NCBI RefSeq assembly: GCF_022829605.1
Contig: NZ_JAKSYD010000204.1
Coordinates: 1-64,000, forward strand
Source of the DNA: Methylobacterium sp. E-065
Lineage (GTDB): Bacteria > Pseudomonadota > Alphaproteobacteria > Rhizobiales > Beijerinckiaceae
Reading direction: 5' to 3'
DNA length: 64,000 bases
The translations under genes were made by a program, and so were the position numbers. The notes below the pieces were generated by a model. That model worked only from the letters and a program-made list of their open reading frames with translations. It did not search any database and was not told the origin of the DNA. Position 1 is the first letter of the stretch; every line of letters starts with the position of its first letter. This document shows positions 4,001-61,551 of the stretch, piece by piece.

Positions 4001-4696
4001 GTGATGGAGGGGCAACTGCGGTCGGAGGCTGAGAAATCCTGGCTGCCCGGAAGTCCAGGTGGTGACCGGCCGCTGAGCCGCCGCGCCTACGACGCGATCT
4101 TCACGGCGATTCAGGACGGTCAGCTGGCGCCGGGTTCGCTCGTGCGCGAGGCAGATCTGACCACGTGGCTTGAGATGAGCCGCACGCCGCTCCGGGATGC
4201 CCTGCAGCGCCTGGAGGCGGAGGGACTGCTGAGCATGCAGTCGCATCGCGGCATCCGGATCGCGGCACTGGATCAGCAGCAGGTCTCGGAGCTGTACACG
4301 GCGCGCGAATGGGCCGAGGGCGCCGCGGCCTCATTGGCCGCGCGGTACGCGACGCCGGTCGACATCGCGCGGATGCGGCATATCCTAGAACAGGAGCGCG
4401 CTTCTGCGGCCGATCCCGTGGCCGGCGCACGGCACAACCGCGATCTTCATCTGACGATCCACACCTGTGCCCGGAACCGGTACCTCGCCGAGCATCTCAG
4501 CTCCATGGCGGCCCTGTTGGCGCTCGTCGGCAACACGCGGCGGCGCAACGCGAACCGCGTGGTCGAAGCCGAGCAGGAGCACACCGCGCTGGTGGCGGCC
4601 ATCGCGGACGGCGACAGTCAACGTGCGGAGGCCAGCGCCCGTCAGCACATCCAGGCCGCGCAGCGAAACGTGCTGACCCATTGGGTAGGCGCCTGA
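4001..4696 (+). CDS. GntR-family regulator, FCD (FadR/VanR) subfamily
   Basis: 231 residues. The N-terminal winged helix-turn-helix (about residues 25-90) has the signature PGSLVREADLTTWLEMSRTPLRDALQRLEAEGLL. The C-terminal all-helical FCD effector domain (about 100-225) shows the expected spaced His/Asp/Arg residues (HNRDLHLTIH, the conserved Arg in CARNRYL, and HIQAAQ). GTG at 4001 or ATG at 4004 can start it, the latter with GGGAG four bases upstream. It diverges from the MFS gene and converges on the TRAP operon. It likely represses the MFS-lactonase unit and perhaps the TRAP operon in the absence of an organic-acid ligand. Confidence 0.85.
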   Translation: MMEGQLRSEAEKSWLPGSPGGDRPLSRRAYDAIFTAIQDGQLAPGSLVREADLTTWLEMSRTPLRDALQRLEAEGLLSMQSHRGIRIAALDQQQVSELYTAREWAEGAAASLAARYATPVDIARMRHILEQERASAADPVAGARHNRDLHLTIHTCARNRYLAEHLSSMAALLALVGNTRRRNANRVVEAEQEHTALVAAIADGDSQRAEASARQHIQAAQRNVLTHWVGA

Positions 4697-4894
4697 GTTC
4701 GGGGCGATCCCCGGAGAGGATGGAGTTCGCGTCCCTGCCCGATCCGCGCGCCTGAAGCTCCGTAAGGCGACGGTCGACCCCACTCCGGCCTTTCCGTCCC
4801 GGGGGACGGGGAGGGAAGACCGTTCCTCACCCCGGAGGCCGATGGTGCGGTGGACCAATCCATCGCGACCGACGATGCCGCCCTGTCAAGGCGC

Positions 4895-5758
4895 TCAAAA
4901 GCCGAAGAGCGCATCCGGGTTGTCGACCAGAATGCGCCGACGGTCAGCCTCGTCGGAAACCCAGGAACCAAACAGTTCTAAGAGGTCGCTCGTGTTGGGC
5001 ATCCCGCTTCTCAACCCAACATGCGGCCAGTCGCTCCCCCACAGGAGACGATCGGGTCTGAGCGCGAGGAGGGCCTCCACATAGGGGCGAAGCTCCGGAT
5101 AGTGCGGGCCTCCCTGAGACAGGCGATAGGCGCCCGACAGCTTGACCCACCCCGTCCCAGCTTCGATGAGGCGCCGCAGGGCCTGGAACCCCGGCTGCTC
5201 GAGCCCCTGCTCAGGCGCGAGAAACCCCATGTGATCGATCACCACCGGACAAGAGAGCTGCCGCAGGCGCGGCTCCAGCTTCACGAGGTGCGCGGGCTTC
5301 AGCAGAAACTGGAGGTGCCAGCCCATCTCGGAGGCCCGGGCCGCGGCCCGCTCGATCCCGGACGGTTCGAGACCGCCCGGATGGGCCATGATGAAGCGAA
5401 TGCCGCGCGCGCCTCGCTCGTGCAAGGCACGCATCTCCGCCTCGGAGGCATCCGGACCGACCACCACGACCGCGCGCATCGGTAGCCCGATTGCGGCGCC
5501 CTCCTCGAGCTGGTCACGGTTGTCGAGGCCGAAGACGCTCGCCTGGACAACGACGATCCGCTCGATGCCGAGTGCGTCAAACAGCCGGCGCGCGCTCGCA
5601 GCCGCGGCTTCCGGCGGCGTGTAGTCACGCTGCGGCACGAGTCGCTCGAGGCGGTTCGGACCGAAGATGTGGAAATGCGTGTCGGTCGCGCCAGGCGGCA
5701 TCCGGAAGGTCGGGGGACGCACGTCCGGATCGGGGGCGAGGCAGGTATCGTCCGTCAT
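4895..5758 (-). CDS. Amidohydrolase of the LigI-like (2-pyrone-4,6-dicarboxylate hydrolase) superfamily
   Basis: 287 residues with a TIM-barrel amidohydrolase fold. The HxH of strand 1 is in GATDTHFHIFGP (about residues 24-35), then YTPPEA, VVIDHMGF in the middle and LLWGSDWPHVG near the end with the catalytic Asp. LigI has this same frame. The Arg pair expected after RGVRFN in LigI is replaced here by RGIRFIMAHPGG, so the substrate may differ (another lactone or a sulfomuconolactone-like compound). It starts six bases after the TRAP permease and has no strong ribosome binding site, which suggests translational coupling. It shares ancestry with the protein at 18458-19351. Confidence 0.8.
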   Translation of the reverse strand: MTDDTCLAPDPDVRPPTFRMPPGATDTHFHIFGPNRLERLVPQRDYTPPEAAAASARRLFDALGIERIVVVQASVFGLDNRDQLEEGAAIGLPMRAVVVVGPDASEAEMRALHERGARGIRFIMAHPGGLEPSGIERAAARASEMGWHLQFLLKPAHLVKLEPRLRQLSCPVVIDHMGFLAPEQGLEQPGFQALRRLIEAGTGWVKLSGAYRLSQGGPHYPELRPYVEALLALRPDRLLWGSDWPHVGLRSGMPNTSDLLELFGSWVSDEADRRRILVDNPDALFGF

Positions 5759-5763
5759 GGGGC

Positions 5764-7692
5764 TCAGCGCGATCCGACGAGGTTGGGCAGGGCGTGGGTG
5801 AACCAGGGTATGAACGCCACGGCGAGCACGCCGAGGACGAGCACGATGAGGTAGGGGATCATCGCCCGGCTGGCCGCCTCGATGCGGCTCTCGGCGACGG
5901 CGCATGCGATGTAGAAGCCAATGCCGATCGGTGGGATGAAGATGCCGATCCCCATCGCGAGGATGATGACCATCGCGTAGTGGATGCTGTCGATCCCGTA
6001 CTGGCCCGCGATGGGGATCAGCAGCGGCCCGAGGATGATCAGCGCCGGTAGCCCTTCGAGCAGCGATCCGACCACGACGAGCAGCGCGAGCGAGCCGATC
6101 AGGAACGCCGCCCGGCTGTCGCCCAGCGCGTGCAGGAGCGAGATCAGGGCGACCGGCAGGTTCGCTGCGGTGAGCGTCCAGGCGAACGAGCCGGCCGCGG
6201 CGATGATGAAGAGCACCATCCCGGACAGCACCCCGCATTCCACGACGATCCGCACGAGATCGCGCAGCCCGAAGGCGCGGTACACGCCGCAGGCCAGGAT
6301 GAGACCGTAGAGCACGGCGACCGCCGATATTTCCGTCGGGGTGGCGAAACCGAAGCGGATGCCGACGACCATCAGGACCGGCATGACGAGCGGCAGCGTG
6401 GCCGCCCCGGCCGCCAGGGCGAGTTCGGGTCCGGTCGCGCGCGGCATGCGCGGTGCCCCTTCACGCACGGCCAGGACCCAGTTCAAGATCATCAAAAGAA
6501 CGGCGATCACGGCCGCGGGTAAGAGGCCGGCGATGAACAGTGTCCCGATGGAGATCGGCGCGACAGAGCCGAGGACCAGCATCGCCAGGCTCGGCGGGAT
6601 CGTCTCCGACATCGCCGCAGAGGCTGCCAGGACCGCCGCGCTCCGCTCGGGCCCGTAGCCCTGTTTCTTCAGCTCGCCTCGCAGCACCGAGCCGACCGCG
6701 ACGACGTCGGCGACCTTCGATCCGGAGATGCCGGACACGAGGTAGATCGTCAGGACGACGACCTGGAGCAGACCGCCCCGCAAATGGCCGACGAGCGCCA
6801 TCGCGAAGCGAACCAGCCGGAGGCTAATCCCGCCGCGTTCCATGATGAGGCCCGTCCAGATGAAGAACGGCAGGGTCAGCAGGATGAAATTGCCCGTCCC
6901 GTCGACGGTGTTCTGCGCTGCTGCGATCAGCGGCGCCGTGCCGGTCAGCTGGAGGAAGAACAGCGAGCCGAGCAGCATCGCAAAGCTGACCGGTAGACCG
7001 AGGAGGACGGCGGCGAAGAACAGGACCAGCATCAGGCCGAGCGCCGCCTGTGGACCGGGGCGCGGGATGGCCGGCAGCGCGGTGATGGCGAGCACGATCG
7101 AAACAGTGACAGCGACGCCGGACAGCGTGCGCCAGGCGAGGGCAGGGCGGTAATCCGTCGCGAACCGCTCGATCGCAAACAGGACGACGAGCCCCATACC
7201 GACGCTGAGCGGTACGACGAACCACGCGGCGCTAATCTGCAGGATCGGGGTCGTGGACAGTGCGGTGATCGATAGAAGGTCGAGGGAGACGTAGCCGACC
7301 GTGGCCGCGGTCACGAGGACGAGACCGTCGATCGCGATCGCGACGGGCTCGCGCCAACCGGGCGGCAGCAGCTGGCGCACGAACTCGACGGTGGTGTGAT
7401 GCTTGGCCCGGTAAGCTAAGGCGCCCCCGATGAAGGCAAGCGTCGTCAGGCAGAGCTTGGCTGCCTCGTCCGCCCACAACAGGGACAGATCGATCGTCGA
7501 GCGGGCGGTGATGTCCCAGAGGATGATCCCGAGTTCGCCGACGAGCGCCACGACCAGGAGGGTGCGGCAGAGCCACTCGACGAGGTCGAGCCCTCGACCG
7601 TACAGGCGGAGCGCGGCGTAGGGCGACAGGGCGAGCGTGGTCGGTGTCCGCTCGATCGCACCGCGGGCCAGCGCGGGCTCTCCGGCGGCCAC
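5764..7692 (-). CDS. dctQM: TRAP transporter fused permease, small plus large subunits (DctQM)
   Basis: 642 residues in two parts. Residues about 30-190 are the four-helix DctQ subunit (WADEAAKLCLTTLAFIGGALAYR and HHTTVEFV). From about 205 onward is the twelve-helix DctM subunit, with GSKVADVVAVGSVL and MSETIPPSLAMLVLG typical of DctM. Fused DctQM proteins are known. The partner is the binding protein DctP four bases upstream. Together they import a carboxylate driven by a sodium or proton gradient. Translation begins with GTG at 7692. Coupling with a downstream lactone hydrolase suggests that the solute is a cyclic carboxylate. Confidence 0.9.
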   Translation of the reverse strand: MAAGEPALARGAIERTPTTLALSPYAALRLYGRGLDLVEWLCRTLLVVALVGELGIILWDITARSTIDLSLLWADEAAKLCLTTLAFIGGALAYRAKHHTTVEFVRQLLPPGWREPVAIAIDGLVLVTAATVGYVSLDLLSITALSTTPILQISAAWFVVPLSVGMGLVVLFAIERFATDYRPALAWRTLSGVAVTVSIVLAITALPAIPRPGPQAALGLMLVLFFAAVLLGLPVSFAMLLGSLFFLQLTGTAPLIAAAQNTVDGTGNFILLTLPFFIWTGLIMERGGISLRLVRFAMALVGHLRGGLLQVVVLTIYLVSGISGSKVADVVAVGSVLRGELKKQGYGPERSAAVLAASAAMSETIPPSLAMLVLGSVAPISIGTLFIAGLLPAAVIAVLLMILNWVLAVREGAPRMPRATGPELALAAGAATLPLVMPVLMVVGIRFGFATPTEISAVAVLYGLILACGVYRAFGLRDLVRIVVECGVLSGMVLFIIAAAGSFAWTLTAANLPVALISLLHALGDSRAAFLIGSLALLVVVGSLLEGLPALIILGPLLIPIAGQYGIDSIHYAMVIILAMGIGIFIPPIGIGFYIACAVAESRIEAASRAMIPYLIVLVLGVLAVAFIPWFTHALPNLVGSR

Positions 7693-7696
7693 GGGG

Positions 7697-8698
7697 CTAA
7701 CCCTTCCTGACCTCCTTCATCACGGCATCGACCAGATCCGGCCCGATGATGTCGCGGAACTGCTTGTACACGGGCTCGACCTGCTTGCGGTACGCGTCTT
7801 GATCCACCGGCAGGATCGCCAGGCCCTTCGCCTTGAAGCGTGCGGCGGTCTCGTCGGTCGCCGCCGCGATCGTGGTGCGCCAATCGCCCGTCAGATCTTG
7901 CGCCGCCGCCCTGATCGCGCTTCGCGCTTGCTCGGGCAACGCGTCGAGCTTGGCCTTGCTCGCCATGAGGACCCCGACGTTGTAGACGTGATTGGTCGTA
8001 TTGATCGTTCGCACGACCTCATCGTGCTTGCCGGCCGCGACCGAGATCATCGGCGTCTCGATAGCTTCGATCGTGTGCTGCGATAGCCCGAGATAGACTT
8101 CCGTGAGGTCGATTGCGATCGGGTTCGCGCTGAGCGTGCGGAACATCGCCGCGAAGATCGCGCCGGGTTGGACGCGGATCTTGAGCCCCTTGATATCAGT
8201 CGGCTCCGGCACCTTTCGCTCGACGGTCGATACGACGCGCCAACCCCAGTGTCCGTAGGACAACCCGTAAATGCCCTTGGCGGGCATGAGGTCGAGGAGT
8301 TGGCCGCCGATCGGCCCGTCCAGGACGCGCTCCGCGCTCTTGGCATCGGGGAAGAGGAAGGGCAAGTCCACCACTTGAAACCGTGGGAAGAGCGGCCCGA
8401 TGAACCCAGAGGTGTGCGCACAAAGATCGATGATGCCGGTCTGCATGCCGGTCATGATGTTGGTGCCGCTGCCGAGCTGACCGATGCTGAACACCTGGAT
8501 TTCTACAGCGCCGTCCGTCCGTTTGTTTACGTTCTCGGCAAAGCGCTTCAGCACAGCGTAAAGCGGATGCGCCTGCGTGTCGGCGAAGGTGAGCTTCAGT
8601 GTGTGGGTCGGTGTTGCGGCGAAGCCCGATCGTGCCAGGAACGGCAGAGCTACCGGCGCGCCGAGGACGGCACCTGCGAACGTGCGGCGACTGATCAA
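7697..8698 (-). CDS. dctP: TRAP transporter substrate-binding protein (DctP)
   Basis: 333 residues. The N-terminus MISRRTFAGAVLGAPVALP carries a twin-arginine-type signal ending near GFAA, so the protein should be periplasmic. DctP-family landmarks are HPLYAVLKRFAE, the strand LKIRVQPGAIFAAM (whose Arg binds the ligand carboxylate in characterised members) and TEVYLGLSQHTIEAIETP. The start codon is TTG at 8698 preceded by GAGGG. It is the first gene of the TRAP-amidohydrolase operon, with a GntR-like dyad about 295 bases upstream. Confidence 0.9.
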   Translation of the reverse strand: MISRRTFAGAVLGAPVALPFLARSGFAATPTHTLKLTFADTQAHPLYAVLKRFAENVNKRTDGAVEIQVFSIGQLGSGTNIMTGMQTGIIDLCAHTSGFIGPLFPRFQVVDLPFLFPDAKSAERVLDGPIGGQLLDLMPAKGIYGLSYGHWGWRVVSTVERKVPEPTDIKGLKIRVQPGAIFAAMFRTLSANPIAIDLTEVYLGLSQHTIEAIETPMISVAAGKHDEVVRTINTTNHVYNVGVLMASKAKLDALPEQARSAIRAAAQDLTGDWRTTIAAATDETAARFKAKGLAILPVDQDAYRKQVEPVYKQFRDIIGPDLVDAVMKEVRKG

Positions 8699-29830: not shown

Positions 29831-32050
29831 ATGCCTTATCGTTCCTCGCTCCTCGCCGTCCTTCTCGCCACCACCACCCTCGCTGGGAATGCGAGCGCGC
29901 AGGACGGGACCATCCAGCTCAACGAGATCTCAGTCGACGCGGCAGGACCCGGCAGCTCTGCCCCGGGACCGATGGGCTCCGGCGGCCTCAACCTCAGTGC
30001 GGGCGACGGCGGCACGGCCGCGACCAGCGGCGGTGGCGGTGGTCCGTCCGGCATCACCGGCTACACCGCCCGCGTGACGACTGCGGGAACGAAGACTAAC
30101 ACGCCAATCATCGAGACGCCGCAATCGATCTCCGTCGTCACCCGGGAGCAGCTCAACGACCGCAACGTCCAGACCCTGAGCGATGCGATCAACTACGTCC
30201 CCGGCGCCATATCGGCCCGGTCGGGCTTCGATCCGCGCTTCGACCAGATCTTCATCCGCGGCTTCGACGTGCTCACCAACCAGGGCACCTATCGCGACGG
30301 CCTGCGCGTAATCGGCAGCGGGTTCATCTTCCCGCGCATCGAGCCCTACGGCGCGGAGGCCGTGACCATCCTACGCGGGCCGTCCGCCGGTCTCTACGGC
30401 CTCGGCTCGCCGGGCGGCATCCTCGACATCACGAGCAAGCGCCCGGTTTTCGTGCCATTCGGCGAGGTCCAGTTCCAGGCCGGTAGCTTCGACCGCGTCC
30501 AGGGCAACTTCGACTTCGGTGGCCCAGTCGAGGGCTCGGGCGGTACCATGGCCTACAGGCTGACCGGCATCCGTCGCGAGGCAGGCACCTTCATCGGCCT
30601 CGGCACCAACGACGACCGGTTCAACATCGCGCCCGCCTTTACCTGGAAACCCGATGCCGCCACGACGTTCACGTTCCTGAGTGAGTTTCAAACGACCAAC
30701 ACGCCAGCCACGACGTTCTACTACAACTACCCAGGTTTCCGGGCGAGCCCGTACTATATGGGCGACCCGCGCTTCGCCGGTCTCGACCAGACGCAGTATC
30801 GGGTCGGCTACGCCTTCGAGCATTTCATCACGCCCGATTTGGTCTTCCGCCAGAACTTCCGGCACTACGGCGTCTTCCTCAGCGGGAAGTACGTCGATAT
30901 CAACGGCATAAACGACGCAAACACGATCGGCACGCGCGACACTGGCTACATCCGCGAAGGCTTGGTGCAGCAGACGCTGGACAACCAGTTGGAGGAGCGC
31001 TTCGCCACCGGCCCGATCGCTCACACCGTGGTCGGGGGCGTCGACTATGCGCGGTACAGCTTGAGCCAGCGCCTCGGCTTCGGCCTTGCCCCAGATCTGA
31101 ACCTGATCACGCGGAACTACGGCCAACAGTTCATCGCCACGCCGACCCTCGGGTCCGCCGCGCGTCAGACCCAGGAGCAGATCGGCGTCTACCTGCAGGA
31201 TCAGGCCAAGTTTGGCGACTTCATCCTCACCCTGAACGGACGCCACGATTGGGTCTTCCAGGACAACTTCACGACCCCCGACAGCGCGGTCTCACGCCAG
31301 AACAACAGCGCGTTCACGGGCCGGGTCGGACTGGGTTACGTCCTAGCGCCGGGCCTCGTGCCCTACGCCAGCTACGCCACGACCTTCACCCCGCAGGTGG
31401 GCCTCGACCGAAACGGACAGGCGTTCAAGCCGGCGACCGGTGATCAAATCGAGGCGGGCGTGAAGTACCTGATCCCCGGCACCAACATCCAAACCGCGTT
31501 CGCCGGCTTCGACATCACACAGTCGAACATTTTGATCCCCGACGCGTCCTCCCTCGCGTTCCAGACCGCCGGCGGTGCCGTGCGCTCGAAGGGCTTCGAG
31601 GCCGAGGCGACCGCCAACCTCGCCCCAGGCACCAACCTGACGATCGCCTACACCCACGTCGACATCCGGTTCGTGAACTCGGTCTCCTCAACCGGCCAGT
31701 CGCTCGCTGGCAACCTCGTCTCGGGCATTCCCCAGGATACCTACGCGTCGTTCCTGACCTACGCGTTCCCACCGTCCTCGCCTCTGCGCGGCCTTCAGAT
31801 CGGCGGTGGCATCCGCTACATCGGTGCGAGCTTCGCCGACGATCAGAACACGGTGCGCAACACTGCCGTCACGCTCTACGACGCTTTGGTGGCCTACGAC
31901 TTCGCGGCGCTCGACCCGAAGTACAAGGGCTTCCGTGCGCAGCTCAACGGCTACAACATCTTCGATCGGAACTATCAGACCTGCTCGTTTGGGTTCTGCA
32001 ATCGCAACCAGCCGGCGACGGTCATTGGCAGCCTGATCTACCGGTGGTGA
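29831..32050 (+). CDS. TonB-dependent siderophore receptor
   Basis: 739 residues. A Sec signal peptide (MPYRSSLLAVLLATTTLAGNASAQ) is followed by a TonB-box-like IQLNEISVDA. A Gly/Ser-rich linker comes next. The plug domain (about residues 80-200) has TNTPIIETPQSISVV, FDPRFDQIFIRGFD and TILRGPSAGLYGLGSPGGILDITSKRP. A 22-strand beta-barrel ends in YNIFDRNYQTCSF and a terminal aromatic (YRW). This is the ferrichrome/catecholate receptor type of outer membrane protein. No periplasmic binding protein or ABC importer adjoins it. The iron source is unknown. Confidence 0.92.
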   Translation: MPYRSSLLAVLLATTTLAGNASAQDGTIQLNEISVDAAGPGSSAPGPMGSGGLNLSAGDGGTAATSGGGGGPSGITGYTARVTTAGTKTNTPIIETPQSISVVTREQLNDRNVQTLSDAINYVPGAISARSGFDPRFDQIFIRGFDVLTNQGTYRDGLRVIGSGFIFPRIEPYGAEAVTILRGPSAGLYGLGSPGGILDITSKRPVFVPFGEVQFQAGSFDRVQGNFDFGGPVEGSGGTMAYRLTGIRREAGTFIGLGTNDDRFNIAPAFTWKPDAATTFTFLSEFQTTNTPATTFYYNYPGFRASPYYMGDPRFAGLDQTQYRVGYAFEHFITPDLVFRQNFRHYGVFLSGKYVDINGINDANTIGTRDTGYIREGLVQQTLDNQLEERFATGPIAHTVVGGVDYARYSLSQRLGFGLAPDLNLITRNYGQQFIATPTLGSAARQTQEQIGVYLQDQAKFGDFILTLNGRHDWVFQDNFTTPDSAVSRQNNSAFTGRVGLGYVLAPGLVPYASYATTFTPQVGLDRNGQAFKPATGDQIEAGVKYLIPGTNIQTAFAGFDITQSNILIPDASSLAFQTAGGAVRSKGFEAEATANLAPGTNLTIAYTHVDIRFVNSVSSTGQSLAGNLVSGIPQDTYASFLTYAFPPSSPLRGLQIGGGIRYIGASFADDQNTVRNTAVTLYDALVAYDFAALDPKYKGFRAQLNGYNIFDRNYQTCSFGFCNRNQPATVIGSLIYRW

Positions 32051-32970: not shown

Positions 32971-34218
32971 CTACGGCGAGCTCGCCATCGGCGTGACGAC
33001 GTGCATAAAGCTCGCCAGGCCAGCGCTCCGCACCGGGTGGAAGGGTTTAGCCTGTGCTTCGCAGTATCGTTTCAGGTGAAGGCTCGCCTCGTGGCTGACA
33101 CAACTCACGGGGAACACCGCTAGATCCGCTTGCCCAACCAGCCCCGCCAGAAGGCACAGGTTGTCCTCGATACCTCCGTCATGGTTGAGCAGCCTGCCGC
33201 CCCTGGCCTCCACGAAGCGGCGGAGATTGGCCACCTGACGCCGCCGGCCGCCAACATAGAGGATGACCTGTCCGTCTAGCCGTCCCGATGTTTGGCTATC
33301 GGCTGTATCCACGCTCGGAACATCCAGAGCCGCTTCGAGGGCAGCCAGTTCCCTTTCGGCAACTGATCGGCGGGCTATCTCCGTGGCTAGATCAGCGCTG
33401 AGGCGTTCGGCTGCGCCAGCCAGCACCGCAAGCCGCTCCTCCAACGCGGTCGCATGCGCGATCTCCCGGGCCAGCCGCACCTCCAGGCCGCGCGTGGACG
33501 GTGGCTCGATGGTCGTAGTAGCCGGGATGGGACGCTCGATTTCGATCGTCCGGGTGCGCTTCCTGAGATCGTCGCGCTCGCGCATGAGCGCCATGATGCG
33601 CTCGTCCCGTGCCGCGAGCGCTTCATCGCGTCGGCCCAACTCCTCTTCGAGATGGCGCAGGCGGCGGATGTCGGCCCGGTTCGACTGACCGACGAGGTGC
33701 GAGAGCATGTGCACTTCGCCGAAGATTTCCTGCACGAGTGGCCAGTCGGTGGCTGGGTGGGTGATCGCTGCCCAATAGGCGCCAGGGATAGCCCCACGCT
33801 CCAGCGAGGACTTCCAGAGCGCCCGAACCGCGTCAGCGGTGCGCGCCTCGGCAAAGCGTTCGATCTCCCGCTCGTGCCGCCGGTCCAGGGTCTTTTGCAG
33901 CAGACGGCCACCCCCGTCCTTGCGACCGGCTATCTGGACGATCTCTCCGTGCAGGTGGTGCTCACTGATCGTCCGAGCGTCGGCACGCCCAAGCTTGGCC
34001 AGGATCGCGCGGGCTTCAGAGTTGGTCAGGCAGGTGCCTACGATCGAGCAGTGCAGGTTCTCGGCAAGCTCCCAGATCCGGTCCCGCGATTTATCCGCCG
34101 AGTCGGGTTCAGGCGGCGGCACGAACGGCGGACGGGTGACGGAAGCGAGGGCGCGCAGCGCTGGACCGTCGAGGTGAGCGATTGGCGGCATCGGCGTCTC
34201 GGCAGTCGTTATATCCAT
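32971..34218 (-). CDS. DUF2325 domain protein with central coiled coil, in a molybdenum-responsive locus
   Basis: 415 residues. The N-terminal region (about 40-190) is helical and contains the Cys of HCSIVGTCLTNSEARAIL. The middle (about 190-310) is a heptad-like coiled coil rich in Arg, Glu and Ala. The C-terminal DUF2325 domain (about 320-410) shows VILYVGGRRRQVANLRRFVEARGG, LNHDGGIEDN and PVSCVSHEASLHLKRYC. Its function is unknown. DUF2325 proteins often sit near molybdenum genes in Rhizobiales. The ATG at 34218 lies inside a ModE-type palindrome, so direct Mo-dependent control is likely. Confidence 0.85.
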   Translation of the reverse strand: MDITTAETPMPPIAHLDGPALRALASVTRPPFVPPPEPDSADKSRDRIWELAENLHCSIVGTCLTNSEARAILAKLGRADARTISEHHLHGEIVQIAGRKDGGGRLLQKTLDRRHEREIERFAEARTADAVRALWKSSLERGAIPGAYWAAITHPATDWPLVQEIFGEVHMLSHLVGQSNRADIRRLRHLEEELGRRDEALAARDERIMALMRERDDLRKRTRTIEIERPIPATTTIEPPSTRGLEVRLAREIAHATALEERLAVLAGAAERLSADLATEIARRSVAERELAALEAALDVPSVDTADSQTSGRLDGQVILYVGGRRRQVANLRRFVEARGGRLLNHDGGIEDNLCLLAGLVGQADLAVFPVSCVSHEASLHLKRYCEAQAKPFHPVRSAGLASFMHVVTPMASSP

Positions 34219-34229
34219 TCGGATATAAC
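34208..34229. promoter_or_regulatory. ModE box over the start codon of the DUF2325 gene
   Basis: Perfect inverted repeat GTTATATCC-ATTC-GGATATAAC; with the preceding C it gives CGTTATAT, the half-site of known ModE operators. The minus-strand ATG of the DUF2325 gene (34218-34216) is within it. ModE-molybdate bound here would block initiation of transcription or translation directly. Confidence 0.75.
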
Positions 34230-34255
34230 ACTCTGTCCAAAAACAATCGGCTTGC

Positions 34256-34624
34256 CTAGGGGGAGGTCATAGCCGGCAGGTCGTCTGCGGTTCGCTCGGG
34301 AGCAGCAATCCGATCTAGGAAGGGCGCGGCCGCCCGGTCGGCAGCACGCTCAATCGCCCTGTAATGCGCGACCAGATCGACTCCGAGTGTAGACAAGCGT
34401 GCCCCGCCTCCCGCCTTACCGCCAATCTGCGCCTCGACTACCGGCTGCCCGAAACCGCTGTTCATCGCCTCAATGAGCATCCATGCCCGCCGGTAGGACA
34501 TGCCGAGCGCCCGCCCGGCTGCGCTGATCGAGCCGTGCTCGGCAACCATCTCCAGGAGTTGCACTTTACCGGGGCCGATACGATTGTCGGGCCCAACGTC
34601 GATACGAATGCTCAGGCTTGCCAT
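34256..34624 (-). CDS. modE: Short ModE-type regulator, DNA-binding domain only
   Basis: 122 residues from the ATG at 34624 (GGGAGAG seven bases upstream). A LysR-like winged helix (about residues 18-85) has GPGKVQLLEMVAEHGSISAAGRALGMSYRRAWMLIEAMN and GGKAGGGARLSTLG, the canonical ModE N-domain. E. coli ModE continues with two molbindin (TOBE) domains that sense molybdate; they are absent here. A separate molbindin is encoded at 35580 and may supply sensing, or this form binds molybdate differently. It is divergent from modA, with a ModE box between them. Confidence 0.88.
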   Translation of the reverse strand: MASLSIRIDVGPDNRIGPGKVQLLEMVAEHGSISAAGRALGMSYRRAWMLIEAMNSGFGQPVVEAQIGGKAGGGARLSTLGVDLVAHYRAIERAADRAAAPFLDRIAAPERTADDLPAMTSP

Positions 34625-34707
34625 CGGGTCTCTCCCTCGCCTCATGCCACGAACCGACGCGTCGACCGGTGGAGCAGTCGCGAACGCAGCGCAATCGATG
34701 GCTTTCT

Positions 34708-34733
34708 GCGATATATTCTGCTTGATATAGCGC
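34708..34733. promoter_or_regulatory. ModE box in the modE/modA divergent promoter
   Basis: GCGATATAT-TCTGCTTG-ATATAGCGC: nine-base arms with one mismatch and eight-base spacer, the spacing of the E. coli modA operator. It lies 35 bases before modA and about 85 before modE. Confidence 0.7.
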
Positions 34734-34767
34734 TGCTGGCACATCCGACGTCGAGGACCGCTTCCGC

Positions 34768-35547
34768 ATGCGCAGTTTGATCCGCTCCGGCCTCATCGCC
34801 ACCTTGTTCCTCACCGTTGGAGCAGCCCAAGCGGCCGAGACCACGACTGTGTTCGGAGCAGCCAGCCTCAAGAACGCTCTCGATGATGCCGGCAAGGCAT
34901 TCACAGCACAATCTGGGATCGAGATCCGGGCAAGCTACGCGGCGTCCTCTGCCCTCGCCCGGCAGATCGAGGCCGGAGCGCCGGCCGACCTGTTCGCCTC
35001 GGCCGACCTCGAATGGATGGACTACCTCGCCAAGAAGAACCTCATCCGTCCGGACACGCGGGTGAGCCTGCTCGGCAACCGCCTCGTCCTGATCGCGCCG
35101 CGCGACGCCAAGGAGAACACGGTTGCCTTCACGCCAGAGGGCTTCGCCAAAGCGCTCGGCTCCGATGGGCGGCTGGCCACCGGCGAGGTCAACTCGGTGC
35201 CGATCGGCAAGTACGCTAAGACCGCTTTCGAAAAGCTCGGTCTGTGGGGGAGCATTCAACCTCGTCTGGCTCAGAGCGACAACGTCCGAGCGGCCCTGGC
35301 TCTGGTCTCGCGCGGGGAGGCGCCGCTCGGCGTCGTCTACGAGAGCGACGCGAAGTCGGATCCCGGCGTGAAGGTCGTGGGCGTGTTTCCGGCGGACAGC
35401 CACCCGCCCGTGGTGTACCCGTTCGCCGTCACCGCGGACGCGAAGGGCGACGGCGCGAAGCGCTTCCTGGACTACCTCCGGAGCGCAGCAGCAAAGCCCT
35501 TCTTCGAGGCTCAGGGCTTCAGCGTCATCGAGGATGGCAAGAATTAA
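34768..35547 (+). CDS. modA: Molybdate-binding periplasmic protein ModA
   Basis: 259 residues with a Sec signal (MRSLIRSGLIATLFLTVGAAQA). ModA motifs are VFGAASLKNALDDAGKAF (Ser ligand in the AASL turn), ASYAASSALARQIEAGAPADLFASADLEWMDYL, LLGNRLVLIAP, GEVNSVPIGKYAKTA and LGVVYESDA. It binds molybdate or tungstate for an ABC importer. The usual partners ModB (permease) and ModC (ATPase) do not follow; instead come a molbindin and a small exported protein. Controlled by the ModE box upstream. Confidence 0.92.
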   Translation: MRSLIRSGLIATLFLTVGAAQAAETTTVFGAASLKNALDDAGKAFTAQSGIEIRASYAASSALARQIEAGAPADLFASADLEWMDYLAKKNLIRPDTRVSLLGNRLVLIAPRDAKENTVAFTPEGFAKALGSDGRLATGEVNSVPIGKYAKTAFEKLGLWGSIQPRLAQSDNVRAALALVSRGEAPLGVVYESDAKSDPGVKVVGVFPADSHPPVVYPFAVTADAKGDGAKRFLDYLRSAAAKPFFEAQGFSVIEDGKN

Positions 35548-35579
35548 GCGATCCGGAATGGGCCAGGAAGGCGGACACC

Positions 35580-35789
35580 GTGAAGATCAGCGCGCGCAAC
35601 ATCATCAAGGGCACCGTGACGGCGATCGAGAAGGGCGCCACCACGGCGCACGTCAAGATTGAGATCATGCCGGGCCAGGTCGTCACCGCCGCCGTAACCA
35701 ACGAAGCGGTCGACAGCCTCAACCTCACGGTGGGCGGTCCGGCCTATGCCGTGATCAAGGCGTCCGACGTCATGGTTGCCGTCGACTGA
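35580..35789 (+). CDS. Stand-alone molbindin (TOBE domain, Mop-type)
   Basis: 69 residues from the GTG at 35580 (AGGAAGGCGG upstream). A single TOBE/Mop domain: KISARNIIKGTVTAIEKGATTAHVKIEI, then VVTAAVTNEAVDSLNLTVGGPAYAVIKASDVMV. Such proteins form hexamers that hold molybdate in the cytoplasm. With a ModE lacking TOBE domains next door, it may buffer or report molybdate. It overlaps the next gene by one base (TGATG). Confidence 0.9.
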   Translation: MKISARNIIKGTVTAIEKGATTAHVKIEIMPGQVVTAAVTNEAVDSLNLTVGGPAYAVIKASDVMVAVD

Positions 35790-36301
35790 TGAAGCCTGGA
35801 TCCCGCGTTCTCCTCACCGTCGCATTGACGGTCTGCTGCATCGGCCCGGCGGTCGCTGAGGATGCGCCGGCTTGTGCGGGCTTCGCATGGTCGGTCGCGC
35901 GGGATCGTGCTGCGTTCACGGCGCCCGATTTGGCCGGGCTCGCATCTGGATCGGCTCTACCCGGCGGGACGGGGGCGGCGCAGGTGTCGTTGAAGCCGGC
36001 GGCAGAGGTGACACTGCCGGTTCAATCTGAGAGGACCGCGAAGCCAGGGACGTTCGCGGGCTTCATCACGGCCACGGTGCCATCCGCCGGCACCTATCAA
36101 CTGACGCTGTCGGAGGAGGCCTGGATCGACGTCAGCCAGGATGGGCGCACGACGCTCAAGCCCGAGCGCATCAGCGGCAAGGCCGGCTGCCCGGAGATCC
36201 GCAAGAGCCTGCGTTTCGCACTCGACGCCGGCCCGGTGACGATCGAGATCGGCCGCGCGCCGAGCCAGCAGATCAAGCTCGATCTGCTCCCGGCGGAGTA
36301 G
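35789..36301 (+). CDS. Small exported protein of a mod operon, function unknown
   Basis: 170 residues with a Sec signal (MKPGSRVLLTVALTVCCIGPAVAE). The mature part is beta-rich (AQVSLKPAAEVTLPVQ, FAGFITATVPSAGTYQLTLSEEAWIDV, GPVTIEIGRAP) and has two cysteines (ACAGF and GCPEI) that could form a disulphide. It looks like a periplasmic carbohydrate-binding-like or lipoprotein-like sandwich. Homologues beside mod genes are sometimes mislabelled homogentisate dioxygenase; no such motif is visible. One-base overlap with the molbindin gene implies coupling. Confidence 0.8.
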   Translation: MKPGSRVLLTVALTVCCIGPAVAEDAPACAGFAWSVARDRAAFTAPDLAGLASGSALPGGTGAAQVSLKPAAEVTLPVQSERTAKPGTFAGFITATVPSAGTYQLTLSEEAWIDVSQDGRTTLKPERISGKAGCPEIRKSLRFALDAGPVTIEIGRAPSQQIKLDLLPAE

Positions 36302-36328
36302 CCGCGTCGGCCGCCTGTCTCGACTGCC

Positions 36329-37159
36329 TCACGGCCCGCTGATCGGCCCGAGTTCGTGGCGGGCGAGGATCGCCTGCCCCTTCTCGGACACGAGGAACAG
36401 GGCGAGGCGCATCGCGTCCGGGTTGTCGGTGATCAGTGCCATGGCGTAGGTCGCCGGCACCAACAGGTTGGGCGGAAGCTGCACGAGGCTGAGGCCGGGC
36501 GCCTCCTTCATGGTACCGCTCTGGCCACTGCAGTAGTACAGCAGCGCGTCCGCGTTGTTGCCTAGGAACACGGTTGCGCTGGGGCTACGGCCCGCCACCG
36601 GCACCATCGTATTGGGCGAGCCGAGCAGCTTCAGCGCCTTCTTCTCCAGCATAGCCTTGGACCCTGGATGTGCGGTCTCGGCTCGATCGAATACGGCCTG
36701 GGCGTAATCGCCGCCAGGATCGGCGCCTGGCGTCGAGGTTGCCAGCCGCAGGTCGGGTTTGAGCAGGCGATCGAGGAGGTTGTCCGGGGTCAGACCAAGA
36801 TCAGCGCGGGCGAGCACACACATCGTGTTACGAGCAAACGGCACGACATCCTTTGCCCTACCTGCATCGACAAGGCGGCGCGGGCTGGCAAGGTCGGCTG
36901 AGAGATAGAGGTCTGCCTTCTCGCCATCCTCTATCCGCTTTCGCAGCAGTCCAGCCGGCCCGAAGGTCGGTGCCGCCACCGCCTCGGCAGGGATGCCTGA
37001 GGCAGCGATCACGTCCTTGAGCGCAGCCACGAGGCTGCCAGCAGCATAGACCTGCATCGGCTCAGCCCACGCTCCGCCTGTAGATGACAGCGTGAGGCAG
37101 CCGAGGAGAGCTAATTGCCGAAGGATGCGCGAGGGTATGGTGAGACGGGTGGCGGGCAA
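36329..37159 (-). CDS. Second ModA-type extracellular binding protein
   Basis: 276 residues. The start is TTG at 37159 with a strong GGAGG five bases upstream. Signal peptide to about residue 32 (GAWA). VYAAGSLVAALKDVIAASG, PTFGPAGLLRKRIEDGEKADLYLSADLASPRRLVDAGRA and NTMCVLARADLGL show the COG0725 molybdate-binding fold. It differs from the first ModA in the middle region (DALLYYCSGQSG). It is preceded by its own ModE box. No permease or ATPase gene is nearby, so it must use a ModBC complex encoded elsewhere or serve another oxyanion. Confidence 0.85.
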   Translation of the reverse strand: MPATRLTIPSRILRQLALLGCLTLSSTGGAWAEPMQVYAAGSLVAALKDVIAASGIPAEAVAAPTFGPAGLLRKRIEDGEKADLYLSADLASPRRLVDAGRAKDVVPFARNTMCVLARADLGLTPDNLLDRLLKPDLRLATSTPGADPGGDYAQAVFDRAETAHPGSKAMLEKKALKLLGSPNTMVPVAGRSPSATVFLGNNADALLYYCSGQSGTMKEAPGLSLVQLPPNLLVPATYAMALITDNPDAMRLALFLVSEKGQAILARHELGPISGP

Positions 37160-37185
37160 TGATGCCTCCAGACGGCTAGAGCAGC

Positions 37186-37207
37186 GCTATATCTGTTCGG
37201 ATATAGC
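37186..37207. promoter_or_regulatory. ModE box upstream of the second ModA-type gene
   Basis: GCTATATC-TGTTCG-GATATAGC: perfect eight-base arms, 27 bases before the TTG start at 37159. It is the third ModE-type site within 3 kb. Confidence 0.7.
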
Positions 37208-37263
37208 CCAAAGCCTGGCAGGATCACCCCTGGCACATGCGTTTCAGGCATCCAGTCGAGGCG

Positions 37264-37758
37264 TCAGTCGTCGGTCTCGAAATCACCCGGTTGCGGCGGG
37301 GCGATCGGCGTGAAGAGGGTCCGGTCTGGCTTGAGGTCGAGGAGTGGTGTGCCATCGAGGCAATCGAGGCCTCTGACCGTCAGGATGTTGCCCTCGATGG
37401 CGATGAGCGTGGCGATCGATGTTCCGATTGGGTTCGGCCGCACGGGCGAGCGCAGAGCAAAGGTGCCGCGCGTGCTCCCATTGTTGGCCGGGCTCTGCCG
37501 CACAAGATCTCGTCGGGAAGCATCGAGCCAGTACAGCACCTCAATCCGAGCGAATTTTGCTAGCCCGTCTAGCGCTGCGCCCCAAGGTTCAAACAGCTCG
37601 ATACGGCAGATCGGGCCATCCGACCTGCCTTGTCGTGGGCAAGCGAGACGATCGGTCCAGGGGGTGTGGATACGACCGATGTAGACCAATCCGGCGTCAT
37701 CGGCTGCAGGTGCCGCGACTGCGACTTCGCCGGTTCTGATTTCGTTGAGGCGCACCAT
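37264..37758 (-). CDS. trmO: tRNA(t6A37) N6-methyltransferase TrmO family (TsaA-like)
   Basis: 164 residues. The family signature SPVRPNPIGTS lies at about 105, with YIGRIHTPW at the start and DCLDGTPLLDLKPD near the end. TrmO methylates N6 of threonylcarbamoyl-adenosine at tRNA position 37, using S-adenosylmethionine. This is a short form without the usual C-terminal extension. It lies on the same strand as the second ModA gene, 104 bases upstream of it. Such TrmO/VirR-like proteins occur in some molybdenum loci; whether it acts on tRNA here is unknown. Confidence 0.85.
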   Translation of the reverse strand: MVRLNEIRTGEVAVAAPAADDAGLVYIGRIHTPWTDRLACPRQGRSDGPICRIELFEPWGAALDGLAKFARIEVLYWLDASRRDLVRQSPANNGSTRGTFALRSPVRPNPIGTSIATLIAIEGNILTVRGLDCLDGTPLLDLKPDRTLFTPIAPPQPGDFETDD

Positions 37759-60867: not shown

Positions 60868-61551
60868 ATGAGCGTCACGGCAATGCAGGACTGGTGGCTC
60901 AGCCTCTCGGAAGAGGTCGTCACCTACGGCCCCGGCTTCCTCTCGGCGACCATCGTCGTACTCGGCGTCACTGTAGCAAGCATCCTCGTGAGCTGGGTCT
61001 GCGGCCTGCTCGGGGCGCTGGGGAAGCGCTCGTCCTTCGCGCCCTTCCGGGCCCTGGCGAGCTTCTACGTCTGGTTTATCCGGGGTACGCCGACGCTGGT
61101 GCAAGTGTTCATCGTCTATTTCGGCATGCCGCAGATGGGCGTGAAGCTCTCGCCGATCACCGCCGGGATCATCGCGCTGGGCGTCAGCAGCGGCGCTTAC
61201 GTCGCCGAGACCATCCGTGCCGGCCTCGCGGCGATCCCCAAGGGTCAGATGGAATCGGCGTTGGCCTTGGGCATGAACCCGCGGATCATGATGGCACGGA
61301 TCGTCCTGCCGCAGGTCTTCCGCATGATCCTGCCTTCGCTCACCAACGAGGCGATCTCATCGGTCAAGAACACCTCGCTGCTCTCGACGATTACGGTGGT
61401 CGAGCTGACCCTCTACGCGCAGCTCATGATCGCCACCACCTTCCGCCCGTTCGATTTCTACATCGCGGCGGCGCTGATCTATCTCGGCCTCACGTCGATC
61501 TTGTCGCAGCTCTCCGCCTTCTTCGAGCGGCGCTACGCCCGCCTGTCCTGA
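60868..61551 (+). CDS. Polar amino-acid ABC transporter permease
   Basis: 227 residues from ATG at 60868 (GCGGAG upstream). Five membrane segments. FIRGTPTLVQVFIVYFGMPQ and the EAA loop SALALGMNPRIMMARIVLPQVFRMILPSL are the HisMQ-type signature. Only one permease gene is present, so a homodimer is expected. Confidence 0.93.
   Translation: MSVTAMQDWWLSLSEEVVTYGPGFLSATIVVLGVTVASILVSWVCGLLGALGKRSSFAPFRALASFYVWFIRGTPTLVQVFIVYFGMPQMGVKLSPITAGIIALGVSSGAYVAETIRAGLAAIPKGQMESALALGMNPRIMMARIVLPQVFRMILPSLTNEAISSVKNTSLLSTITVVELTLYAQLMIATTFRPFDFYIAAALIYLGLTSILSQLSAFFERRYARLS

Follow-up and report, generated by a model that had tools for sequence, protein, structure and literature searches.

A stretch of 64,000 nucleotides from Methylobacterium sp. 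E-065 (contig NZ_JAKSYD010000204.1, positions 1 to 64,000; hereafter the window) was analysed for a block at 32971–37758, in which genes for a long DUF2325 protein, a short ModE regulator, ModA-type binding proteins and a molbindin stand beside ModE boxes. This is a real, recurrent block that probably responds to molybdenum (Mo) or the molybdenum cofactor (Moco). Its genes and boxes are as follows.

32971–34191, minus strand: long-form DUF2325 protein (Pfam PF10087), 406 amino acids (aa), start from the orthologue set; modelled with a helical N-domain bearing conserved His/Cys, a coiled coil and a Rossmann-like C-terminal DUF2325 domain
34207–34230, no strand: ModE box 1, ahead of the DUF2325 gene; most orthologous loci have a similarly placed box
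34256–34624, minus strand: short ModE, DNA-binding domain only, 122 aa, without TOBE; TIGR00637 just under cut-off, PDB 2ijl match
34709–34732, no strand: ModE box 2, in the divergent modE–modA1 interval
34768–35547, plus strand: ModA1, molybdate-binding protein (TIGR01256; PDB 2h5y, E 1e-72)
35580–35789, plus strand: Mop, lone molbindin, 69 aa (TIGR00638; PDB 1h9j, E 3.5e-24)
35789–36301, plus strand: sp170, exported protein of 170 aa, start overlapping the mop stop; without Pfam family; ModA-fused homologue in locus L120, paralogue on contig C43
36329–37159, minus strand: ModA2, second oxyanion-type binding protein, PRK03537-like, under those cut-offs
37185–37208, no strand: ModE box 3, ahead of modA2
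37264–37758, minus strand: TrmO (TIGR00104), a recurrent neighbour by synteny, here not directly behind any box

Hidden Markov model (HMM) searches confirmed the gene content given in a preliminary description of this DNA (DUF2325, ModE, ModA, molbindin, a second ModA-type protein and TrmO), and the three palindromes named there lie within 1 bp of the positions it gave (34208, 34708 and 37186). The DUF2325 protein scored 59 bits against a cut-off of 33.6, Mop 74.8 against 55 and TrmO 100.9 against 93.25. ModA1 scored 188.9 bits against 62.5 and qualifies as a molybdate-binding protein. ModA2 matched SBP_bac_11 (138.6 bits against 25) and stayed below the TIGR01256 cut-off (47.5 against 62.5); PRK03537-type models matched it strongly, yet under their cut-offs. 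Its best PDB matches are archaeal solute-binding proteins of the UPF0100 type; another of its matches bears the name molybdate/tungstate binding. The ModE N-domain scored 92.1 bits with TIGR00637 (E 1.7e-26), slightly under the cut-off of 98.5. It is a winged helix-turn-helix DNA-binding domain of the ModE type, matching PDB 2ijl over residues 6–114 (E 4.2e-30) and the ModE structure 1b9m (E 9.6e-10).

The DUF2325 start was placed at 34191 because box 1 covers the ATG (34218) of the longer open reading frame (ORF), and the orthologues agree. For ModE, 34624 is the probable start, as the longer ORF would contain box 2. With these starts, boxes 1 and 2 are upstream elements outside the coding sequence. 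Box 3 is flanked by modA2 and the 3′-end of trmO and therefore fronts modA2, not trmO. The gene of a TonB receptor (29831–32050 of the window) was considered as a further box-controlled gene and rejected, as no box lies ahead of it.

The box pattern with up to 3 mismatches gave 6 matches in the window, which are the three sites read on both strands. Shuffled windows gave a mean of 0.05 matches, and none of 100 shuffles reached 6. The stringent core TATAT-N7-GATATA is confined to the three window sites in the 6.99 Mb genome (5 strand matches), against 2 strand matches for the core read backwards. The scan of 59 genomes of the genus gave 42 forward sites against 8 for the backward pattern. The site CGTTATATCAAATCTGCTATATCG and near variants of it recur in six of these genomes (G002, G010, G017, G026, G037 and G049).

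The DUF2325 protein and its box in relatives

An alignment of nine long-form DUF2325 proteins was used to scan species genomes, and the best 80 of 151 relatives were retained as loci, mostly from Alphaproteobacteria and some from Betaproteobacteria. The nearest long DUF2325 proteins are those of Methylobacterium sp. E-005 and J-088 (99%). Boxes were scored out of 16, with thresholds of at least 14 or at least 13. Gene starts in the box count are tblastn match starts, two loci (L112 and L165) have less than 150 bp upstream, and ORFs of unannotated loci were chosen by a script using G+C by codon position.

Of the 80 loci, 63 have a box of at least 14 in the 300 bp upstream of DUF2325, compared with 65 of 3635 random stretches from the same loci. 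At the threshold of 13 the counts are 66 of 80 and 93 of 3635. Twenty rounds of dinucleotide shuffling of the 80 upstream regions gave a mean of 0.2 regions at 13 and 0 at 14. The box-bearing loci come from Methylobacterium, Beijerinckia, Rhizobium, Reyranella, Rhodospirillales and Acetobacteraceae, and from the Betaproteobacteria Variovorax and Paraburkholderia. The preliminary description had proposed DUF2325 as a new member of the Mo regulon, together with a neighbourhood survey for ModE boxes, and the result of that survey strengthens the proposal. The breadth of the link between DUF2325 and the box looks new; among the papers searched, none names both DUF2325 and molybdenum.

Counted over the loci holding each family, the gene starting just behind a box of at least 14 is DUF2325 in 51/75, modE in 17/33, modA2-like in 10/24 and modA1 in 6/23. 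The same holds for alcohol dehydrogenase genes (8/15) and aldehyde dehydrogenase genes (8/22). A gene for an iron-complex-type binding protein (Peripla_BP_2 by HMM in L126, the one locus tested) starts just behind a box in 9/9 loci, all Rhizobium.

Thirteen of the 59 genus genomes have a DUF2325 match, three of them partial or split (G016, G045 and G052). DUF2325 was considered as an obligatory partner of the short ModE and rejected, as 39 of the 59 genomes have a ModE-type match of at least 79 bits.

In the AlphaFold2 model, built with 57 sequences, a helical N-domain is followed by a long coiled coil and then by a Rossmann-like C-domain (mean predicted local distance difference test score, pLDDT, 86.3; predicted template modelling score, pTM, 0.50). 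The N-domain modelled alone reached pLDDT 94.4 and pTM 0.88. No Pfam family matches it above cut-off, and none of the Foldseek candidates is a convincing solved relative, although one may exist: the best Foldseek match has E 1.6, and the best VIA-align match has Z 4.6 with a root-mean-square deviation (rmsd) of 2.9 over 63 residues. The full-length structure search covered residues 304–406 only and reached Z 9.8 at best (rmsd 2.8 over 94 residues, in a tie with response-regulator proteins), and profile matches to PDB sequences were read as coiled coil only. C48, C54, H81, W126, Y139, W140, H145, H161 and H165 are identical in all 57 sequences, and H47 in 56; one row containing a stop (L109) had been removed from the alignment. 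Because the peptides HCSIVGTC and G[EA]IPGAYW served as seeds for the survey, the conservation of H47, C48, C54, Y139 and W140 is partly built in, while H81, W126, H145, H161 and H165 lie outside the seeds. A metal site in the DUF2325 protein is probable.

The DUF2325 protein Cj1384 of Campylobacter jejuni (104 aa) has a suggested redox or metal role, is strongly induced by violet-blue light and is under PerR and RacRS (PMC9426514). It shares the DUF2325 domain and this suggested role with the protein studied here, but it is too short for the helical N-domain, and the available portion of that source reports no Mo link.

Metal-free formate dehydrogenase, importer and binding proteins

In relatives, the block also encodes a metal-free-type NAD-dependent formate dehydrogenase (NF005750, 695.6 bits against 329). 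An Aldedh-family aldehyde dehydrogenase, a zinc-type alcohol dehydrogenase and a MoeA-type protein are also present; these three reach the Pfam cut-offs and match narrower NCBIfam models under cut-offs. The metal-free formate dehydrogenase (fdh) occurs in 7 of the 59 genus genomes, all among the 13 with DUF2325 (partial in G016). No match to it was found in the E-065 genome.

The 36 fdh loci studied comprise the 7 of the genus and 29 new ones from the order (55 matches listed); L230 has a stop inside fdh. A lysR gene in the same direction lies upstream of fdh in 18 of the 36 loci, and a box of at least 13 lies ahead of lysR in 11 of these 18. These boxes are 1186–1317 bp before fdh and start 44–59 bp before the lysR match in ten loci and 142 bp before it in L235. 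The 11 loci span four families by handle (f1, f2, f32 and f46). Where no same-direction lysR is present, 1 of 18 loci has an upstream box, at a different place. Over all 36 loci at a threshold of 14, upstream boxes were found in 10 and downstream boxes in 4. The upstream 1.5 kb held 10 boxes at 14 and 12 at 13, against shuffle means of 0.1 and 0.2 per 36 loci.

Most simply read, the ModE regulon includes Mo-free formate oxidation in part of the order. The boxes before lysR-fdh may mark a switch to a Mo-free isoenzyme comparable to that of the Anf nitrogenase, with repression by Mo as the prediction. Mo-dependent switching of formate dehydrogenases in methylotrophs was described in older physiological reports, and the arrangement offers a regulatory explanation for the switch between Mo and metal-free enzymes. 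The box ahead of the metal-free formate dehydrogenase looks new: a literature search, mostly at the level of listings, surfaced no report of ModE control of this switch. The enzyme is relevant to C1 metabolism and biotechnology.

A closely related known arrangement is that of Rhodobacter capsulatus, in which the Mo-box regulon of MopA and MopB includes mopA-modABC, morAB and anfA (PMC6925177). As far as the available part of that source goes, the two systems share Mo-boxes ahead of binding-protein genes and a Mo-free isoenzyme system, under Mo repression in R. capsulatus and predicted to be so here, but the Mo-free enzyme is a nitrogenase there and a formate dehydrogenase in the relatives of the block. 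The two R. capsulatus regulators are described as ModE-like, and direct sensing of molybdate is ascribed to ModE regulators in the available part of PMC7294313, whereas the ModE of the block is short.

Positions 8056–8715 of L027 (G000:C237) hold an ORF similar to the beginning of a formate dehydrogenase alpha subunit. Its last residues are ...NQARV, and the stop that follows may be a selenocysteine TGA.

The preliminary description had held that the ModBC importer is missing and suggested searching the rest of the genome for modB and modC. Both were found on contig C159 of the same genome, in the order modABC: modA scored 183.7 bits against 62.5 (TIGR01256), modB 221.3 against 182.6 (TIGR02141) and modC 433.9 against 285.05 (TIGR02142). 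The block itself has neither modB nor modC and no adjacent modA-modB-modC operon, and no modB match was found on the contig of the window. A weak box, CGTAATATCCGGCCGGGTATGACG, with 3 mismatches, ends 26 bp ahead of the C159 modA ORF. It is suggestive only, because 3-mismatch matches do not exceed the control genome-wide.

On plasmid pCMU01 of Methylorubrum extorquens CM4 (L243, NC_011758.1), modABC accompanies mop, short modE and DUF2325, which answers the importer half of the refuting condition named in the preliminary description (ModBC elsewhere with the same genes in a standard operon). A TOBE protein, modC, modB, modA, an alcohol dehydrogenase, a MoeA-type gene, a short winged-helix gene (TIGR00637, 94 bits) and DUF2325 are adjacent there; one box fronts DUF2325 (L243 11948), and there are four further boxes. 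The cluster resembles the block as a related set of mop, short modE and DUF2325 with boxes, joined by the alcohol dehydrogenase and MoeA-type genes. It differs in having modABC inside the cluster, and neither sp170 nor modA2 appears among its annotated genes shown. Taken with C159, pCMU01 makes the absence of modBC from the window one of local arrangement, best called a local accident on the sequences compared.

The small exported protein sp170 matches no Pfam family. It was considered as a CsgH curli chaperone, and this was rejected (NF041112, 16.7 against a cut-off of 35). Orthologues occur as a separate gene in 11 survey loci, and L120 encodes a fusion of ModA and sp170 of 427 aa (4117–5400). 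This fusion is the best evidence that sp170 works with ModA, of which it is a likely partner. The earlier proposal of the small exported protein as a new Mo-regulon member is strengthened along with that of DUF2325. A distant relative, sp196, was seen in Methylorubrum between a TonB receptor and a protein whose best match, under cut-off, is the MbnH-type diheme family, in a gene run behind a box.

Interpretation and alternative explanations

We consider, with a probability of about 0.78, that the block is a Mo/Moco-starvation regulon island and that the wider regulon pairs Mo scavenging with Mo-sparing enzymes. The pairing is suggested by the boxes on Mo-independent enzymes and MoeA in relatives. 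The preliminary description had proposed a sensing or scavenging module for Mo or tungsten; a Mo/Moco-responsive block is supported by the sequence, and the missing importer falls away with modABC on C159.

We infer the following course from box positions and gene content. When Mo/Moco is sufficient, the short ModE would sit on the three boxes and repress DUF2325, modA1-mop-sp170 and modA2; when Mo/Moco is scarce, these genes would come on. ModA1 (with sp170) and ModA2 would catch periplasmic oxyanion and most likely load the ModBC importer of the other contig, while Mop would buffer molybdate. The DUF2325 protein, cytosolic and probably metal-binding, would help the cell through Mo shortage. 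Where these boxes also front the metal-free NAD formate dehydrogenase, an NAD aldehyde dehydrogenase, a zinc-type alcohol dehydrogenase and MoeA, as in some relatives, they would bring them under this control. The E-065 genome has the scavenging part and DUF2325, without the metal-free formate dehydrogenase.

A more far-reaching proposal, which we put forward tentatively and which may well not hold, concerns the long DUF2325 protein as a core Mo/Moco-starvation effector across Alpha- and Betaproteobacteria. It would be a cytosolic protein with an undescribed helical domain, holding metal by its conserved His/Cys and helping the shift from Mo enzymes to Mo-free substitutes, foremost from Mo to metal-free NAD formate dehydrogenase. 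The findings on the block as such give this uncharacterised and widespread family a physiological setting and a direct test.

Several points weigh against a starvation regulon. The box score was set by eye on the sites of the window itself, and the genome-wide scan with 3 mismatches is noise (37 forward against 44 backward-control matches per strand). The sites are near-identical when read backwards, which makes the backward control a poor one; it fires on 14 of the 80 upstream regions at 14 or above, in no case off a forward site. Many survey loci are closely related, so the counts are not independent. No box at 14 was found in 17 of the 80 DUF2325 loci, including that of an Anaerolineae metagenome-assembled genome (L177), and box-fronted genes are a minority for moeA (1/8), mop (4/24) and lysR (3/10). 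The box fronting the genome's own modABC is weak, with its 3 mismatches. Seven of the 18 lysR-fdh loci have no box in the upstream 1.5 kb, two of which have a box heading a longer gene run (L059 11278 and L095 10430). The fdh of G030 has neither kind of box.

An alternative that we regard as unlikely is a split sensor, in which Mop binds molybdate as the missing sensor half of the short ModE, the two together equalling a fused ModE. HMM searches found no TOBE in the ModE protein, in agreement with the preliminary description, which sets the protein apart from the full-length E. coli type with its C-terminal TOBE/molbindin part. The genome has 7 TOBE matches, one being the mop of the block and one ModC, and none overlaps its 3 ModE-domain matches. 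In the genus, the short ModE measures 96–128 residues from the GPGK motif to the stop in all 29 parsed of 30 loci (L194 was the unparsed one), too few for TOBE. Over the 80 loci, 41 of 44 modE genes are short, and 3 are long enough for a fusion (245–265 aa from the match start). A split sensor is favoured by this scarcity of fused-length genes and by mop in 29 of the 41 short-modE loci, five times directly after modE on the same strand (L139, L144, L146, L148 and L150); mop was counted only with a short modE, since in L161 and L170 the mop match probably falls on the TOBE portion of a long ModE. However, 12 of the 41 loci have no mop in the fetched stretch, though it could be elsewhere, and in most of those that have one mop is oriented against modE. 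Its position behind modA in the Methylobacterium block suits storage or buffering. The short ModE is also an already known kind. Its closest solved relative, PDB 2ijl (a 135-aa "molybdenum-binding transcriptional repressor"), has the same type of DNA-binding domain in a short protein; the difference lies in the surroundings of the block's ModE, which include DUF2325 and sp170. The short ModE of Agrobacterium reportedly follows Moco availability and not molybdate. For the starvation regulon we favour a Moco-linked signal with Mop as buffer; the boxes adjoin modE/modA1, DUF2325 and modA2, and their binding by the short ModE is predicted.

Uptake without ModBC is quite improbable. Here ModA1 and ModA2 would feed another ABC permease or act as purely periplasmic scavengers. 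The C159 modABC already has its own ModA, and in nine Rhizobium loci a box fronts a gene from a single binding-protein cluster (in L126 Peripla_BP_2, then FecCD, an ABC ATPase and SBP_bac_11). Against this, the related gene set of pCMU01 includes modBC, and the sole BPD_transp_1 permease match on the contig of the window is at 61003, 24 kb off. A tungstate or general oxyanion response, with the block not tied to Mo/Moco limitation, would fit the PDB matches of ModA2 and the ability of ModA-type proteins and molbindins to bind tungstate too, but it is very improbable, as the box-linked metal-free formate dehydrogenase and MoeA of relatives point to Mo/Moco economy.

Other copies and related clusters

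The block recurs with extra genes inserted in the loci L055, L056, L057, L058 and L059 of relatives, the last without trmO. All five have one box ahead of DUF2325 and one next to modE, and four (not L059) also have one ahead of modA2. A partial second copy lies on C43 (L024, G000:C43:10000-22000, 5253–8260; contig of 22.6 kb). It holds a short modE, modA1, mop, an sp170 paralogue, a further SBP_bac_11 protein and two boxes. A third short ModE of the genome is found at 4041–4352 of L209 (G000:C157), on a contig of 6.5 kb that has no box of at least 13.

In L126 (3680–7305) and eight other Rhizobium loci, a box precedes genes for a Peripla_BP_2/FecCD/ABC-ATPase transporter and then for a ModA2-like binding protein, as identified by HMM in L126. 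The arrangement resembles importers of the MolBCA type.

The Mo cluster of pCMU01 also has a TonB receptor and an OFA transporter, and the plasmid is typed as conjugative. TonB-dependent receptors stand behind ModE boxes at L060 14855–17050, L167 4894 and L243 19768–21963, and are possibly Mo-responsive outer-membrane uptake proteins. A haem-containing dehydratase (PF13816) lies directly behind a box in L063 of G004 (6143–7192). In three Reyranella/Rhodospirillales loci (L123, L131 and L143), a box lies ahead of mop followed by trmO, and TrmO itself may be Mo-regulated there.

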